In this document: positions 17,472 through 21,419 of the stretch, piece by piece
How positions within the stretch are numbered: the stretch's first letter is position 1
Layout: every line of letters starts with the position of its first letter
Assembly (NCBI GenBank): GCA_947494145.1
Contig: CANLTZ010000011.1
Span: forward strand, 62,001-126,000
Length of the DNA: 64,000 bases
Origin: an uncultured Jannaschia sp.
GTDB taxonomy: Bacteria; Pseudomonadota; Alphaproteobacteria; Rhodobacterales; Rhodobacteraceae
Direction: 5' to 3'
The notes under the pieces: generated by a model
The model's database searches: none
What the model was told of the DNA's origin: nothing
What the model saw: only the letters and a program-made list of their open reading frames with translations
Translations under genes and position numbers: made by a program

Positions 17472-17923
17472 AGCGCCACCGGCGCCAGGCAGAGCAGGAC
17501 GCCGCCCGTCAGGATCAACCGCAATTTCATCCACCAAGGCGGCGCCAAGCCCTGGTTCCAGAACAACCAGTCCAGCGCCAGAAGCCCGACAAAACCCGCC
17601 ATCAGCGAAGTTGCCGCCGCCTGTTCGCCTCCGCCCGTGGTGAAGAACGCCCAAAGCGCGGGCAGCACCGACAGCGCATAGCCGGTCGTGGCCACTTGGC
17701 CCTTGGCCTTGGTGGCAAAGCCCCACAGCACACCCGACATGAAGCTGAGGATCACGGCGCCATAGAACAGACCCACGTAGGGCCCAATGAAGCGCGGGCC
17801 AACCCAGGCCACGGTCTGGAGCGCCAGTGACGGCACCCATATGGTGACCAAACCCCACGCGAAGGGAAGCAGGCCAGCAAGGCCCAGCACCAGGGCGGAC
17901 CGGGGGATTGGTGCGTCGAACAT
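17468..17923 (-). CDS. DUF3429 membrane protein
   Basis: A 151-residue protein with four or five transmembrane helices (PRSALVLGLAGLLPFAWGL, VGLFYGAVILSFMSGVLWGF, TTGYALSVLPALWAFFTTGG, and two C-terminal helices). It fits DUF3429, an uncharacterised inner-membrane family. The start MFDAPIPRS at 17923 is preferred to the open frame reaching 17995, since the N-terminus then begins just before the first helix. It is coupled to the methyltransferase by a four-base overlap. Confidence 0.82.
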   Translation of the reverse strand: MFDAPIPRSALVLGLAGLLPFAWGLVTIWVPSLALQTVAWVGPRFIGPYVGLFYGAVILSFMSGVLWGFATKAKGQVATTGYALSVLPALWAFFTTGGGEQAAATSLMAGFVGLLALDWLFWNQGLAPPWWMKLRLILTGGVLLCLAPVAL

Positions 17924-18009
17924 GGGACCTGAAGTGCCATGGGCGCGCGGCACGGGAAACCAGATTTTTCCCAGACCCAGTTGAGCGACATGCACCGGGG
18001 CCGCCTAGT

Positions 18010-18627
18010 CTACGCGCGCTCCAACGCCAAGCGGCCCGCAAGCGCCGCAAAGACCGCAGCGAAGGACCGATTGAGCCAGGCCATGGCCCGCCGGGACGCC
18101 AGGACGCGGGCGCGCACCATGCCCGCGAACAGCCCGTAGATCGCGAAGACAACAAAGGTCATGGCCATGAAGACGGCGCCAAGCTGGGCCATTTCAACCG
18201 TGGCGCGGGTGGCATCGCCGGACAGGAAGGGCGGCAGCAAGGCCAGGAAGAAGATCGACAACTTCGGGTTCAAGATGTTGATAAGTGCCCCGCGGACAGC
18301 GACGCGCATCAGCGGCTCGGGCGTGGCGTCTGCCGGTTTCACGGCCAGCGCGCCCGATTGGCGCAGCGCGCCCCAGGCCATCCAAAGCAGATACGCGACG
18401 CCCGCGAATTTCACGATATTGAAGAGAAGCGCGCTGGCATGAAGGACGGCGGCAAGCCCAAGGGTGGCAGCCGTCAAGTGCGGCACAATCCCGAAGGTGC
18501 AACCCGCCGCAGCTGCCACGGCGGCCAGTTTGCCGCGACCCAGCCCCATGGCCAATGTGTAGACCACGCCCGTCCCGGGCGCGATGACCACCACCAAGGC
18601 GGTGATCAGGAATTGGATGGTGATCAT
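18010..18627 (-). CDS. LysE/RhtB-family exporter
   Basis: A 205-residue inner-membrane transporter, second of its family in the window. The N-terminal LITALVVVIAPGTGVVYTLAMG and NILNPKLSIFFLALLPPFLS are family signatures; there are about six hydrophobic helices. It is only distantly similar to the exporter at 9479-10093, so it is not a recent duplicate. The substrate is unknown. A short peptide gene lies 69 bases upstream on the same strand. Confidence 0.9.
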   Translation of the reverse strand: MITIQFLITALVVVIAPGTGVVYTLAMGLGRGKLAAVAAAAGCTFGIVPHLTAATLGLAAVLHASALLFNIVKFAGVAYLLWMAWGALRQSGALAVKPADATPEPLMRVAVRGALINILNPKLSIFFLALLPPFLSGDATRATVEMAQLGAVFMAMTFVVFAIYGLFAGMVRARVLASRRAMAWLNRSFAAVFAALAGRLALERA

Positions 18628-18696
18628 GGTGGCCCCGAACTGTCAGGCCACCATCCTTGTCTGGGGGTGCGGGGCCTGTCCAGCCCCGCTTTTGCG

Positions 18697-18822
18697 TCAC
18701 ATCATCTGGACGGCAGGGGCGTCCGGCACCAAGGCTGTGGCGCTGGTGGCCGCCGGAATGAAACTTGTCCCGATCAGAACGATGGCAAGAAGCAGGACGG
18801 GGACGCTGGCAGTGTAGGTCAT
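18697..18822 (-). CDS. 41-residue hydrophobic peptide
   Basis: A short open frame starting at ATG 18822 with a good ribosome site (AAAGGA, eight bases before). The product begins MTYTASVPVLLLAIVLIGTS, a single hydrophobic segment resembling a signal peptide or membrane anchor, and ends in a short Ala/Pro-rich tail closing at VQMM. Either a cleaved export signal or a small membrane protein is possible. It is on the same strand as the Lys/Phe-rich peptide genes but is separated from them by a strong terminator. No family is recognised; coding status rests on the ribosome site and the signal-like composition. Confidence 0.5.
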   Translation of the reverse strand: MTYTASVPVLLLAIVLIGTSFIPAATSATALVPDAPAVQMM

Positions 18823-18991
18823 GGTGAATTCCTTTGTCTTGTCAGGCGCGCTGGCCTCTATGCCTTTAATATATAGATATTTTTCCCAGGTTCACTGCAC
18901 AGGTGATCACGAAGAGCGCAGCGTTCGTGACGTGAACGTCACCTTCAAGGGCGCCGGCAACTCGACGACACCCGCACGGGTCGCACCACGC

Positions 18992-19029
18992 AAAAAACAG
19001 CCCCGCACGATGCATCGCGCGAGGCCGTT
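18992..19029 (-). terminator. Rho-independent terminator after the micropeptide genes
   Basis: On the minus strand a 17-base-pair stem with only G-U irregularities (arms around AACGGCCTCGCGCGATG and its partner) is followed directly by six T residues. It lies 28 bases beyond the stop of the last Lys/Phe-rich peptide gene and should end that transcript before the 41-residue peptide gene. Confidence 0.88.
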
Positions 19030-19056
19030 TTATGTGTCGCTGAAGCGAAGGCGAAC

Positions 19057-19269
19057 TCAGTAGCCGTAGAAGAACTTCTTCTTTTTGAACTTCTTGCCGC
19101 CAAACTTCTTGAACTTGAACTTCTTGAACTTGGCCAGCTCCTGATCCTGCACCGTCTCGAAGGCGGGGGCGTCGAAGTCGACCGCGGCCAGGGCAGGCTG
19201 CACGGCACCGACAGTGGACAGGGCGACGGCCAGGGCGATGGCGGGGGTGGTGATGGTACGGAGTTTCAT
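19057..19269 (-). CDS. Secreted Lys/Phe-rich micropeptide, copy 1
   Basis: A 70-residue preprotein with a Sec signal peptide (MKLRTITTPAIALAVALSTV followed by GAVQPALAA, cleavage near residue 29). An acidic segment DFDAPAFETVQDQELA comes next, then a highly basic, aromatic C-terminus beginning KFKKFKFKKFGG and ending KKKKFFYGY. The mature region is nearly all Lys and Phe with a Gly-Gly break. The ribosome site AAAGGA is properly spaced. The copy lies last in the minus-strand array, just before the terminator. No known family is recognised. An acidic pro-segment ahead of a cationic amphipathic tail resembles processed antimicrobial or surface-binding peptides, but this is inference. Confidence 0.85.
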   Translation of the reverse strand: MKLRTITTPAIALAVALSTVGAVQPALAAVDFDAPAFETVQDQELAKFKKFKFKKFGGKKFKKKKFFYGY

Positions 19270-19355
19270 ATCGATAATCCTTTCGGGGTCGGCGATCGCG
19301 GCGGCGGGCGCGACCTTGCCGAGATAAGGGGAAAAGCGGTGATCGTCGGCTGCGA

Positions 19356-19559
19356 TCAGTAGAAGAACTTCTTCTTGAACTTCTTGCCGCCGAATTTCTT
19401 GAACTTGAACTTCTTGAACTTGGCCAGTTCCTGATCCTGCACCGTCTCGAAGGCGGGGGCGTCGAAGTCCGTCGCGGCAAGCCCAGGCTGGGCCGAGGCG
19501 GCGGCAGTCAGGGCAACGGCGATGGCAAGGGCGGGGGCGGTCAGAAAACGGAGTTTCAT
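19356..19559 (-). CDS. Secreted Lys/Phe-rich micropeptide, copy 2
   Basis: A 67-residue paralogue. The signal peptide differs (MKLRFLTAPALAIAVALTAA), but the mature part from DFDAPAFETVQDQELA through KFKKFKFKKFGG is the same, ending KKFKKKFFY with one Lys fewer and no terminal Gly-Tyr. The start at 19559 is chosen because AAAGGA lies eight bases upstream; an ATG two codons earlier is too close to the site. Conservation of the mature part while the signal diverges indicates that the mature peptide is under selection. Confidence 0.85.
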   Translation of the reverse strand: MKLRFLTAPALAIAVALTAAASAQPGLAATDFDAPAFETVQDQELAKFKKFKFKKFGGKKFKKKFFY

Positions 19560-19583
19560 GGTCATGGTCCTTTCGGGTCGGCT

Positions 19584-19606
19584 CCGCAAGCGAAGGGCGC
19601 TTGCGG
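19584..19606 (-). promoter_or_regulatory. Stem-loop in the leader of micropeptide copy 2
   Basis: A perfect nine-base-pair stem (CCGCAAGCG pairing with CGCTTGCGG) with a five-base loop lies between copy 3 and copy 2, ending about 12 bases before the ribosome site of copy 2. No T-run follows on either strand, so it is not a classical terminator. It may stabilise or process the polycistronic mRNA. Confidence 0.55.
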
Positions 19607-19639
19607 GCCGTGAAAATTGTCTTGGAAGGTCAGCAGGGC

Positions 19640-19852
19640 TTAGTAGCCGTAGAAGAACTTCTTCTTCTTGAACTTCTTGCCGCCAAACTTCTTGAACTTG
19701 AACTTCTTGAACTTGGCCAGCTCCTGATCCTGCACCGTCTCGAAGGCGGGGGCGTCGAAGTCGACCGCGGCCAGGGCAGGCTGCACGGCACCGACAGTGG
19801 ACAGGGCAACGGCCAGGGCGATGGCGGGGGTGGTGAGGGTGCGGAGTTTCAT
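19640..19852 (-). CDS. Secreted Lys/Phe-rich micropeptide, copy 3
   Basis: A 70-residue preprotein identical to copy 1 except Leu for Ile at residue 6. The order is signal peptide, acidic DFDAPAFETVQDQELA segment, then the Lys/Phe tail ending FFYGY. It is the promoter-proximal copy of the array, with AAGGA nine bases before the ATG at 19852; an in-frame upstream extension to 19942 has no ribosome site and is rejected. Its leader contains a short stem-loop. It is probably expressed together with copies 2 and 1 and exported by Sec to the periplasm or beyond. Confidence 0.87.
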   Translation of the reverse strand: MKLRTLTTPAIALAVALSTVGAVQPALAAVDFDAPAFETVQDQELAKFKKFKFKKFGGKKFKKKKFFYGY

Positions 19853-20155
19853 CTTGGTCTTCCTTTTTTGTCTGAAGCGCTGTTCGCTTCTGTCCCGATT
19901 AGAGATGGACCATGGCGTCTGGATTTGCATCAAACGTTGCATCCCGTCTCCGTCACTGGGTGTGAGAAAATCGGATGTGACGTGGCGTCGGGAACGGCCG
20001 CCTTTGCCCCCGGATCAGCCTCAAAAATACCATATACAGCAACGTGTTAAGCTGCACTCGCAAATTGTTACAGACCGCTCACGCACCTCCTCAAGAAAGG
20101 CGTGAGATCCGTGCTTTTCGGGGTGTTTTCGGGGCCATTGCGGCCCCCGCTCGCA
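19853..20155. other. 303-base intergenic region upstream of the micropeptide array
   Basis: This region contains no convincing gene. It must hold the promoter of the micropeptide array and the end of the ispH transcript. The stretch around 20020-20070 is AT-richer than its surroundings and is the most plausible promoter site, but no well-spaced -35/-10 pair can be named with confidence. A small hairpin (GGGGCC/GGCCCC at 20131-20147) lies just after the ispH stop without a T-run, and a CTCACGC/GCGTGAG inverted repeat spans 20078-20106. Confidence 0.5.
19874..19890 (-). promoter_or_regulatory. Stem-loop in the leader of micropeptide copy 3
   Basis: A six-base-pair stem (GAAGCG with CGCTTC) and five-base loop, 22 bases upstream of the copy 3 start. 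It shares the AAGCG/CGCTT stem core with the stem-loop before copy 2, which suggests a common leader element rather than chance. Confidence 0.4.
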
Positions 20156-21106
20156 TCAAGCGTGAACGCGTAGGATGCGGGGAACCTTGAATTCGACGTT
20201 TTCCTCGGCCGTGACCACGGGTGAAATGGTCACCTCGTAGCGGTCGCGGAACGCATCGATCACTTCCTGGATGAGAACTTCGGGCGCACTGGCCCCCGCC
20301 GTCACCCCGAGCGACCGGATGCCATCAATGGCGCGCCAGTCGATATCGGTCGCCCGCTGCACGAGTTGGGCATAGTCGCAGCCAGCCCGCGCCCCCACTT
20401 CCACCAAGCGGCGCGAATTCGACGAATTGGGCGCGCCAACCACCAGAATGGCATCGCAAAGCGGCGCCATGGCCTTCACGGCCTCCTGCCGGTTGGTGGT
20501 GGCGTAGCAAATATCTTCCTTGTGGGGGCCGACGATGTTGGGAAAGCGCGCTTTCAAGGCGGCCACCATGTCGGCTGTATCGTCCACCGACAGGGTCGTC
20601 TGGGTGATGAAGGCCAGCCGGTTCGGGTCGCGGGGCGCCACATTGGCCACGTCGTCCACATCTTCCACCAACAACACTTCACCTTCGGGCAATTGGCCCA
20701 TTGTGCCCACGGTCTCCGGATGGCCGGCATGGCCGATCATGATCATCTGCAACCCGGCCTCATGGTGGCGGGCCGCTTCGATATGGACCTTGCTCACCAG
20801 CGGGCAGGTTGCATCCACGAAGGTCATGTTGCGCGCCTCTGCGGCGGCAGGCACGGATTTGGGCACGCCATGGGCGCTGAAAATCACTGGGCGGTCGGGC
20901 GGGCATTCGTCCAGTTCTTCCACGAAGACGGCGCCTTGGTCGCGCAGGCCATCCACCACGTGGCGGTTATGGACGATCTCATGGCGCACATAGACCGGGG
21001 CGCCCCATTTCTCGATGGCCATCTCGACGATCTTGATGGCGCGGTCCACGCCTGCACAAAAGCCCCGGGGCTCAGCCAGATGAATCGTCAGTGGCGGCTT
21101 GGTCAT
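20156..21106 (-). CDS. ispH: 4-hydroxy-3-methylbut-2-enyl diphosphate reductase
   Basis: A 316-residue iron-sulfur enzyme for the last step of the non-mevalonate isoprenoid pathway, producing IPP and DMAPP. The three cluster-binding cysteines are Cys17 ([10 protein letters not shown]), Cys101 ([12 protein letters not shown]) and Cys200 ([11 protein letters not shown]), and NSSNSRRL is conserved near the C-terminus. The ATG at 21106 is preferred to a GTG two codons upstream. It is transcribed toward the micropeptide array with 303 bases between. Confidence 0.97.
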
Positions 21107-21182
21107 ATCCACATTCCCCGTCTCGCGCCCCAGACCTAGGCGGCGGCGTTTGCGCCGTAAAGGGCATGCGACACCGCGCCCG

Positions 21183-21419
21183 TCACTTGCGCCAATGGGT
21201 CGGCACGATGATCAAGGCCCCGACAGAGGCCAGGATCGCATTCATCCCCGCCGACCGAAAGCCCAGGTTGAACATCAGCGTGACGAAATAGAACAGGAAG
21301 GCGCCACCCACGCAGATGATGATGCTAGGGATGATGCCGTTATGGGTGAAGCCGATCCGCTCGGACGCGTAGCCCACGATGCCCGCAATGACGACCGTTC
21401 CGATAAGGGTGGGAAACAT
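21183..21419 (-). CDS. Small GlsB/YeaQ-like membrane protein
   Basis: A 78-residue very hydrophobic protein with three predicted helices ([58 protein letters not shown]). The glycine-rich arrangement resembles the GlsB/YeaQ/YmgE membrane family, but the match is loose. Its start at 21419 is four bases after the fmt stop, so it ends the def-fmt operon. Function is unknown. Confidence 0.7.

Follow-up and report, generated by a model that had tools for sequence, protein, structure and literature searches.

A tandem trio of secreted-looking, Lys/Phe-rich small proteins in an uncultured Jannaschia that may bind envelope polyanions

Three tandem open reading frames on the minus strand, located between ispH and a LysE-family gene, form a real gene trio encoding small, secreted-looking proteins with an acidic segment and a compositionally unusual tail, mostly of Lys and Phe. 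They lie in the window (the whole stretch of 64,000 nucleotides analysed here, G000:C11:62001-126000), which is part of a draft genome of 4.91 Mb in 53 contigs, and within the searches made they represent an orphan and apparently taxonomically restricted family. We tentatively favour, with a probability of about 0.35, the view that this is a lineage-specific family in tandem, whose disordered polycation-aromatic peptides would be exported by Sec and bind polyanions of the envelope or matrix. The features concerned are the following:

19640-19852, minus strand: copy A, 70-aa preprotein MKLRTLTTPAIALAVALSTVGAVQPALAA-VDFDAPAFETVQDQELA-KFKKFKFKKFGGKKFKKKKFFYGY (from the list of open reading frames and the alignment)
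19356-19559, minus strand: copy B, 67-aa preprotein with a diverged signal, lacking one Lys and the final Gly-Tyr
19057-19269, minus strand: copy C, 70-aa preprotein differing from A at 4/210 coding bases, with stop codon TGA, not TAA
19861-19864, minus strand: Shine-Dalgarno-like AGGA of A, read from the sequence
19568-19573, minus strand: Shine-Dalgarno-like AAAGGA of B, within the block GCCGACCC(C)GAAAGGA common to B and C
19278-19283, minus strand: Shine-Dalgarno-like AAAGGA of C, within the same block as in B
19874-19890, minus strand: short hairpin in the leader of A; the whole 108-nt leader has z -2.26, with 3/200 shuffles as stable
19579-19610, minus strand: hairpin rich in GC, in the leader of B (A-B spacer), without a U-run, z -3.15, with 0/200 shuffles as stable
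18992-19031, minus strand: near-palindromic intrinsic terminator, its stem 25 nt past the stop codon of C

The copies repeat with a period of 290-293 bp, and 52 of the 70 columns of their alignment are invariant. In all three a signal-like N-terminus precedes the acidic segment DFDAPAFETVQDQELA, the tail KFKKFKFKKFGGKKFKKK(K)FFY(GY) comes last, and an AGGA-type Shine-Dalgarno site can be read 8 nt 5' of each ATG. The N-terminus was read by eye as a candidate Sec signal from MKLR, a hydrophobic stretch and an ALA-A ending like an AxA-type site (ALAA in copy A), and the frames of 70, 67 and 70 aa agree with the three small secreted-looking preproteins of 67-70 aa reported in the preliminary description of this locus. 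The likeness among copies given there holds for A and C; B differs mostly in the signal, as had been said, and also in the missing Lys and Gly-Tyr. The edge of the array had been placed at 18697, which takes in a separate 41-aa ORF (18697-18822) beyond the terminator. A gene on the opposite strand (ORF 19601-20050, plus strand) was rejected, as start, Shine-Dalgarno site, signal and third-position changes fit the minus strand, in whose frame the changes in codons 31-64 fall at the third position in 3/3 cases between A and B and in 4/4 between B and C. No fourth copy was found in the same 4.91-Mb draft, where the search returned E-values of 1.9e-40, 3.4e-40 and 1.2e-29, and then 8.9.

That the array has its own terminator is borne out by folding: the stem comprises 17 uninterrupted base pairs, including three G-U pairs, with a six-U run at its end, and the 72-nt stretch containing it reaches -34.9 kcal/mol (z -4.53), a stability attained by none of 200 shuffles. 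A simple terminator scan gave two other sites and missed the stem after C, and the claim therefore rests on the fold. Leader stem-loops had also been proposed; that of B is strong and that of A weaker, whereas the leader of C folds in an ordinary way (126/200 shuffles as stable). A scan for a sigma-70-type promoter of the array found none, which counts against the polyanion-binding reading, and a single transcript is putative. Rfam gave no match over 17900-21300. An inverted repeat was noticed by eye at 18904-18945, in the stretch that separates the 41-aa ORF from the terminator; its RNA fold is matched in stability by 79/200 shuffles, and it would therefore be at most a DNA operator. Part of the B-leader hairpin (19596-19610) is exactly complementary over 15 bases to 18032-18046, near the 3' end of lysE, which may be chance.

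The codons of the array are host-like and well adapted, with AAG:AAA and TTC:TTT ratios of 33:5 and 25:3 over the three frames and a GC3 of 0.82-0.89 versus 0.76-0.84 in seven other genes of the window. Its GC content (0.57-0.59) is lower than in the segments on either side (0.61-0.70), which the AAG and TTC codons would lead one to expect, GC3 staying host-like, and neither GC nor GC3 gives a sign of recent foreign origin.

In codons 1-29, A and B differ by 11.5 synonymous changes in 26.8 sites and 12.5 nonsynonymous changes in 60.2 sites, versus 3 synonymous changes in about 17.6 sites and 0 nonsynonymous changes in about 84.4 sites in codons 31-64, a comparison that stands apart from codon 30, which reads Thr in B but Val in the other two copies and may be mature, and from the ends past codon 64, which differ by an indel; over codons 30-64 the counts are 3.8 and 2.2. 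With p values computed on counts rounded to integers, the nonsynonymous drop from signal to mature part (12.5/60 to 0/84) is strong, at p 1.4e-5, and that of synonymous changes lacks significance (p 0.11); inside codons 31-64 nonsynonymous changes (0/84) are depleted relative to synonymous ones (3/18, p 0.005); these counts are small, and the three copies exchange sequence and are not independent. Because of the 0 versus 3 changes in codons 31-64, the mature part looks translated and constrained. The earlier observation of a near-invariant mature part next to a diverged signal in B is thus recovered. Selection on the peptide, offered as its cause, fits these counts, but is not supported as the sole reason, since the copies also exchange sequence.

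Traces of this exchange are found in the flanks. A and C differ at codons 4, 6, 15 and 62 (98% identity), and their likeness is confined to the coding frame: the stops are TAA and TGA, and an ungapped comparison of the 60 upstream bases gives 35% identity. Local alignments of the 80-base upstream flanks are chance-like for A-B (251/500 shuffles as good) and A-C (153/500); B and C share there the 15-base block at the Shine-Dalgarno site (6/500). Downstream, shuffles did as well in 2/500 cases for A-B, 24/500 for A-C and 439/500 for B-C, the A-B match being the same block because what follows A is the leader of B, and what follows B that of C. Copy C is hence an A-like frame behind a B-like leader, and from this combination it follows that exchange between copies also acts. 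An old duplication followed by recombination between the frames would explain the mosaic, whereas a simple recent tandem duplication would not, and from the mosaic pattern alone we infer probable gene conversion among the copies.

From V30 onwards, the 41-mer of copy A has a pI of 9.9 and a net charge of about +7, divided into about -5 over the first 17 residues and about +12 over the last 24, and it contains nine Phe and two Tyr. The tail is cationic, as previously stated, but its supposed amphipathic character is contradicted by a helical hydrophobic moment (100 degrees) of 0.03 for the 24-residue tail, which 98.6% of shuffled tails reach or exceed, and by strand moments that are ordinary relative to shuffles. 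Phe residues are spaced near 2.7 residues; at 135 degrees, 1.3% of shuffles attain the moment of KFKKFKFKKF, which forms the first half of the tail, and 2.6% attain that of the whole tail, these being two of 20 segment-angle tests; the second half is ordinary (29%). An AlphaFold2 model has a mean pLDDT of 55.8 and a helix only at residues 7-20, in the signal, which is a weak test given an input alignment of three rows, and a low-confidence model cannot prove disorder. We treat the tail as a putatively disordered polycation with fairly regular Phe, not as an amphipathic helix. Calling the acidic part a pro-segment was a guess: we saw no site for cleavage, and the four scanned neighbours include no gene for processing.

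The best-supported steps of the polyanion-binding reading are translation, a Sec-type signal recognised by eye and the split charge. The signal would carry each peptide across the inner membrane, and the released 38-41-mer would be retained at envelope or matrix through its charge and through Phe/Tyr-Lys contacts with polyanions, which may be LPS, capsule, extracellular DNA or phospholipid headgroups. The acidic part might moderate self-toxicity or let molecules associate, three copies before one terminator would provide a higher dosage, and recombination between copies would help keep the mature part uniform. Polyanion binding is what one would expect of a disordered Lys/Phe chain located at a Gram-negative envelope. 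One study describes the synthetic peptide (KFF)3K as disordered in buffer and as giving no concentration-dependent liposome leakage (PMC7766051), and another reports that KFF constructs in Salmonella induce PhoP/Q, PmrA/B and cationic-peptide resistance genes (PMC8096218). The four neighbours scanned (LysE, LytB, DUF3429 and Fmt) include none for capsule, matrix or adhesion, which weighs against polyanion binding.

No convincing relatives emerged from the sets searched, in which the genomes of genus, family, order and class overlap. There was no relative at E 1e-3 in 393 other genomes of the family and, with the 41-mer as query, none at E 0.1 in 350 other genomes of the order. Copy A had no match among plasmids and phages at E 1, among viral contigs, or by sequence in the PDB; relatives with nothing but the tail in common may have been masked by low-complexity filters and composition correction. 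A profile of the three copies gave matches in 16 of 19 congeners at E 0.036 to 3.8 (limit 10), and the nine that were fetched as loci all lay in frames of 311-651 aa, none of this layout. A profile match in a viral contig was spurious, with 17 residues opposite a 719-aa ORF. Across the class the same profile matched in 4 of 384 other genomes (E 5e-4 to 0.01). Two of these matches, in frames of 210 and 224 aa that resemble peroxiredoxins, arise through signal-like stretches, and a third, in a 362-aa frame that resembles PpiC, was likewise matched via such a stretch. The sole class match with a similar layout, an ORF of 63 aa, combines a signal with a Lys-rich end and has no Pfam match; its pairwise likeness to A is weak and not significant (13/34, E 0.19), and the alignment ends before the tail, which makes it at most a possible homologue.

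Family libraries, read at the curated score or otherwise at E at most 1e-3, returned nothing above threshold in Pfam-A (DUF3481, E 0.054 and 0.09), NCBIfam (NF040517, E 0.03), PHROGs (PHROG 9426, E 0.3, copies A and B) or PADLOC-DB (PtuB, E 0.011 and 0.02, copies A and B), in line with the initial impression that no known family is involved. A Cognatazoarcus locus with 49% identity over residues 1-41 is a different gene, a 196-aa ORF that we take to be of HNH type; its preselection rested on shared exact 8-mers (ALAAVDFD, for example), its E-value refers to the candidates alone, and it is one hit among the matches listed of a genome-contig scan that is otherwise a weak negative. PtuB, an HNH protein, matches residues 14-46 weakly and overlaps the stretch matched by that locus, a coincidence that we treat as chance. 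The pattern WWS x9 occurs in 109 of 394 genomes, the window's own included; of 30 such loci fetched, a Lys/Phe/Tyr filter left two, in frames of 762 aa and of 39 aa, the latter without this layout. The pattern AARAARTTYAARAARTTY is absent from the window's own genome, so that its matches (8/394) are uninformative, and 0/9 of its loci passed the filter. Neither KFKKFKFKKF nor DFDAPAF appears in any paper of the searched literature, and a topical search of listings and abstract starts gave nothing on such a peptide among the matches listed.

The acidic segment (window 19715-19795) resembles an M16-peptidase-like stretch, FDAPAVERVRDQVLA, in a congener (L068, G012:C18:35001-35081; Pfam M16 E 4e-5), with 11 of 15 residues alike (profile E 0.036), 51 of 81 bases identical and the same codon at 8 of 14 shared residues; this may be chance or a distant origin of the segment.

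Among the observations named in advance as speaking against the family were a lack of homologues, which is what we found within the sets searched, and a dN/dS near 1, which we did not find. On account of the latter the family is read as real and taxonomically restricted.

The array is bordered by ispH (LytB, E 2e-93) on one side and, on the other, by the 41-aa ORF, after which come LysE (E 3e-31) and then a DUF3429 gene. ispH is present in all 19 other genomes searched in the genus, and a LysE relative follows it inside the fetched 1.5 kb in 12 of them (11 called by tblastn, with L009, L011 and L017 in overlapping or broken pieces, and L013 called from the ORF list). The ispH-LysE gap measures about 67 to 1070 bp in 11 congeners, by tblastn coordinates, versus 1528 bp here. 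The ORFs within it vary by species across the congener loci L008-L026 (118, 149 and 271 aa, for example), as at a site of variable cargo. The array was found in 0/19 congeners at E 1e-3, and this, together with the variable gap content, argues for species-level gain or retention at a variable site. The 41-aa ORF at 18697-18822 (minus strand, MTYTASVPVLLLAIVL...), upstream of LysE, is hydrophobic, separate from the array and not one of its copies. Similar stretches of 38-42 aa, mostly with MPYT-type starts, lie 3' of ispH in 5/19 congeners (L008, L012, L013, L019 and L021), in four of the five cases read from an ATG inside a longer frame. Searching blind regained 2/5 of these sites, weakly (E 0.017 and 0.22). 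The 41-aa ORF is possibly a conserved, unannotated micropeptide.

Behind polyanion binding, our order of preference places a membrane-active peptide, then a young gene, then a surface adhesive and finally a regulatory leader. An antimicrobial or competition peptide, whose acidic segment would mask the tail until proteolysis frees it to permeabilise the envelopes of rivals, is possible though doubtful: it accords with the charge split of about -5/+12, a Lys/Phe composition like that of the envelope-crossing synthetic (KFF)3K, copies in tandem and a narrow distribution suited to fast-changing competition genes, but not with a tail devoid of amphipathic helix or strand, nor with four scanned neighbours that include no immunity, peptide-export or processing gene, nor with Pfam, NCBIfam, PHROG and PADLOC families that all stay below threshold. 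Rather unlikely is a young gene, arisen de novo or recently acquired and without settled function, whose tail would have grown from AAG/TTC triplet runs. The tail DNA contains short internal repeats (6, 9 and 15 bases), which would suit such a gene, as would the lack of convincing relatives and the varying site content among congeners; the codons 31-64 that carry no nonsynonymous change while the signal drifts, the terminator, the Shine-Dalgarno sites and the host-like GC3 would not.

We also consider it unlikely that the trio are a hitherto undescribed class of lineage-restricted natural secreted polyampholytes, joining an acidic block to one of mostly Lys and Phe and homogenised by gene conversion, which would form or cross-link a surface polyanion coacervate. 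A self-assembling fibril or coacervate acting as a surface adhesive, with aromatic and Lys stickers, a Gly-Gly hinge and a C-terminal Tyr, seems improbable: opposite charges on one chain, the nine Phe and two Tyr, the Phe spacing and the 135-degree moment of the first half and whole tail would favour it, against which stand the ordinary second half and the lack of an adhesion gene among the four neighbours scanned. Least probable is a regulatory leader, in which slowing at Lys/Phe codons or arrest at ribosome or translocon would control the terminator, the 41-aa ORF and the LysE gene. The Lys/Phe-dense end of C does lie 25 nt ahead of a strong terminator-like stem, past which comes a LysE-type translocator gene, and the signal peptide is a trait of secretion monitors, which carry one; yet the 5' arm of the terminator pairs with upstream RNA at best at -15.5 kcal/mol (183/300 shuffles as good), so no antiterminator is seen, three copies would not be needed, LysE occurs without the array in at least 12/19 congeners and with it in 0/19, and lysine handling by LysE is here a guess.

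The trio, if expressed and exported, would provide a compact and testable case of making a strongly cationic aromatic peptide without self-harm, and a case of an orphan family held uniform by selection plus recombination. Cathelicidin- and defensin-type precursors combine a signal, an acidic pro-part and a cationic end, and the trio resembles them in this order of parts, but has no match in the scanned family libraries, no Cys and no known cleavage site, and is bacterial. Attenuator leaders of the pheL type are dense in one or two amino acids and precede a terminator; the trio has a similar density in few amino acids and a terminator next to it, but differs by its signal peptide, its length of 67-70 aa, its three copies and the lack of an antiterminator partner. 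SecM-type arrest peptides possess a signal peptide and a special C-terminal end, as the trio appears to, whereas here a terminator-like stem closes the array and the 41-aa ORF and LysE lie downstream, with no Sec component. Expressed and exported, the three peptides would be nature's equivalents of (KFF)3K and other designed Lys/Phe peptides. (KFF)3K is likewise cationic, contains only Lys and Phe and is reported to act at Gram-negative envelopes (PMC8096218, PMC7766051). (KFF)3K is a synthetic 10-mer with Phe pairs, whereas the trio consists of natural, secreted-looking 38-41-mers with more Lys than Phe and an acidic N-terminal part.
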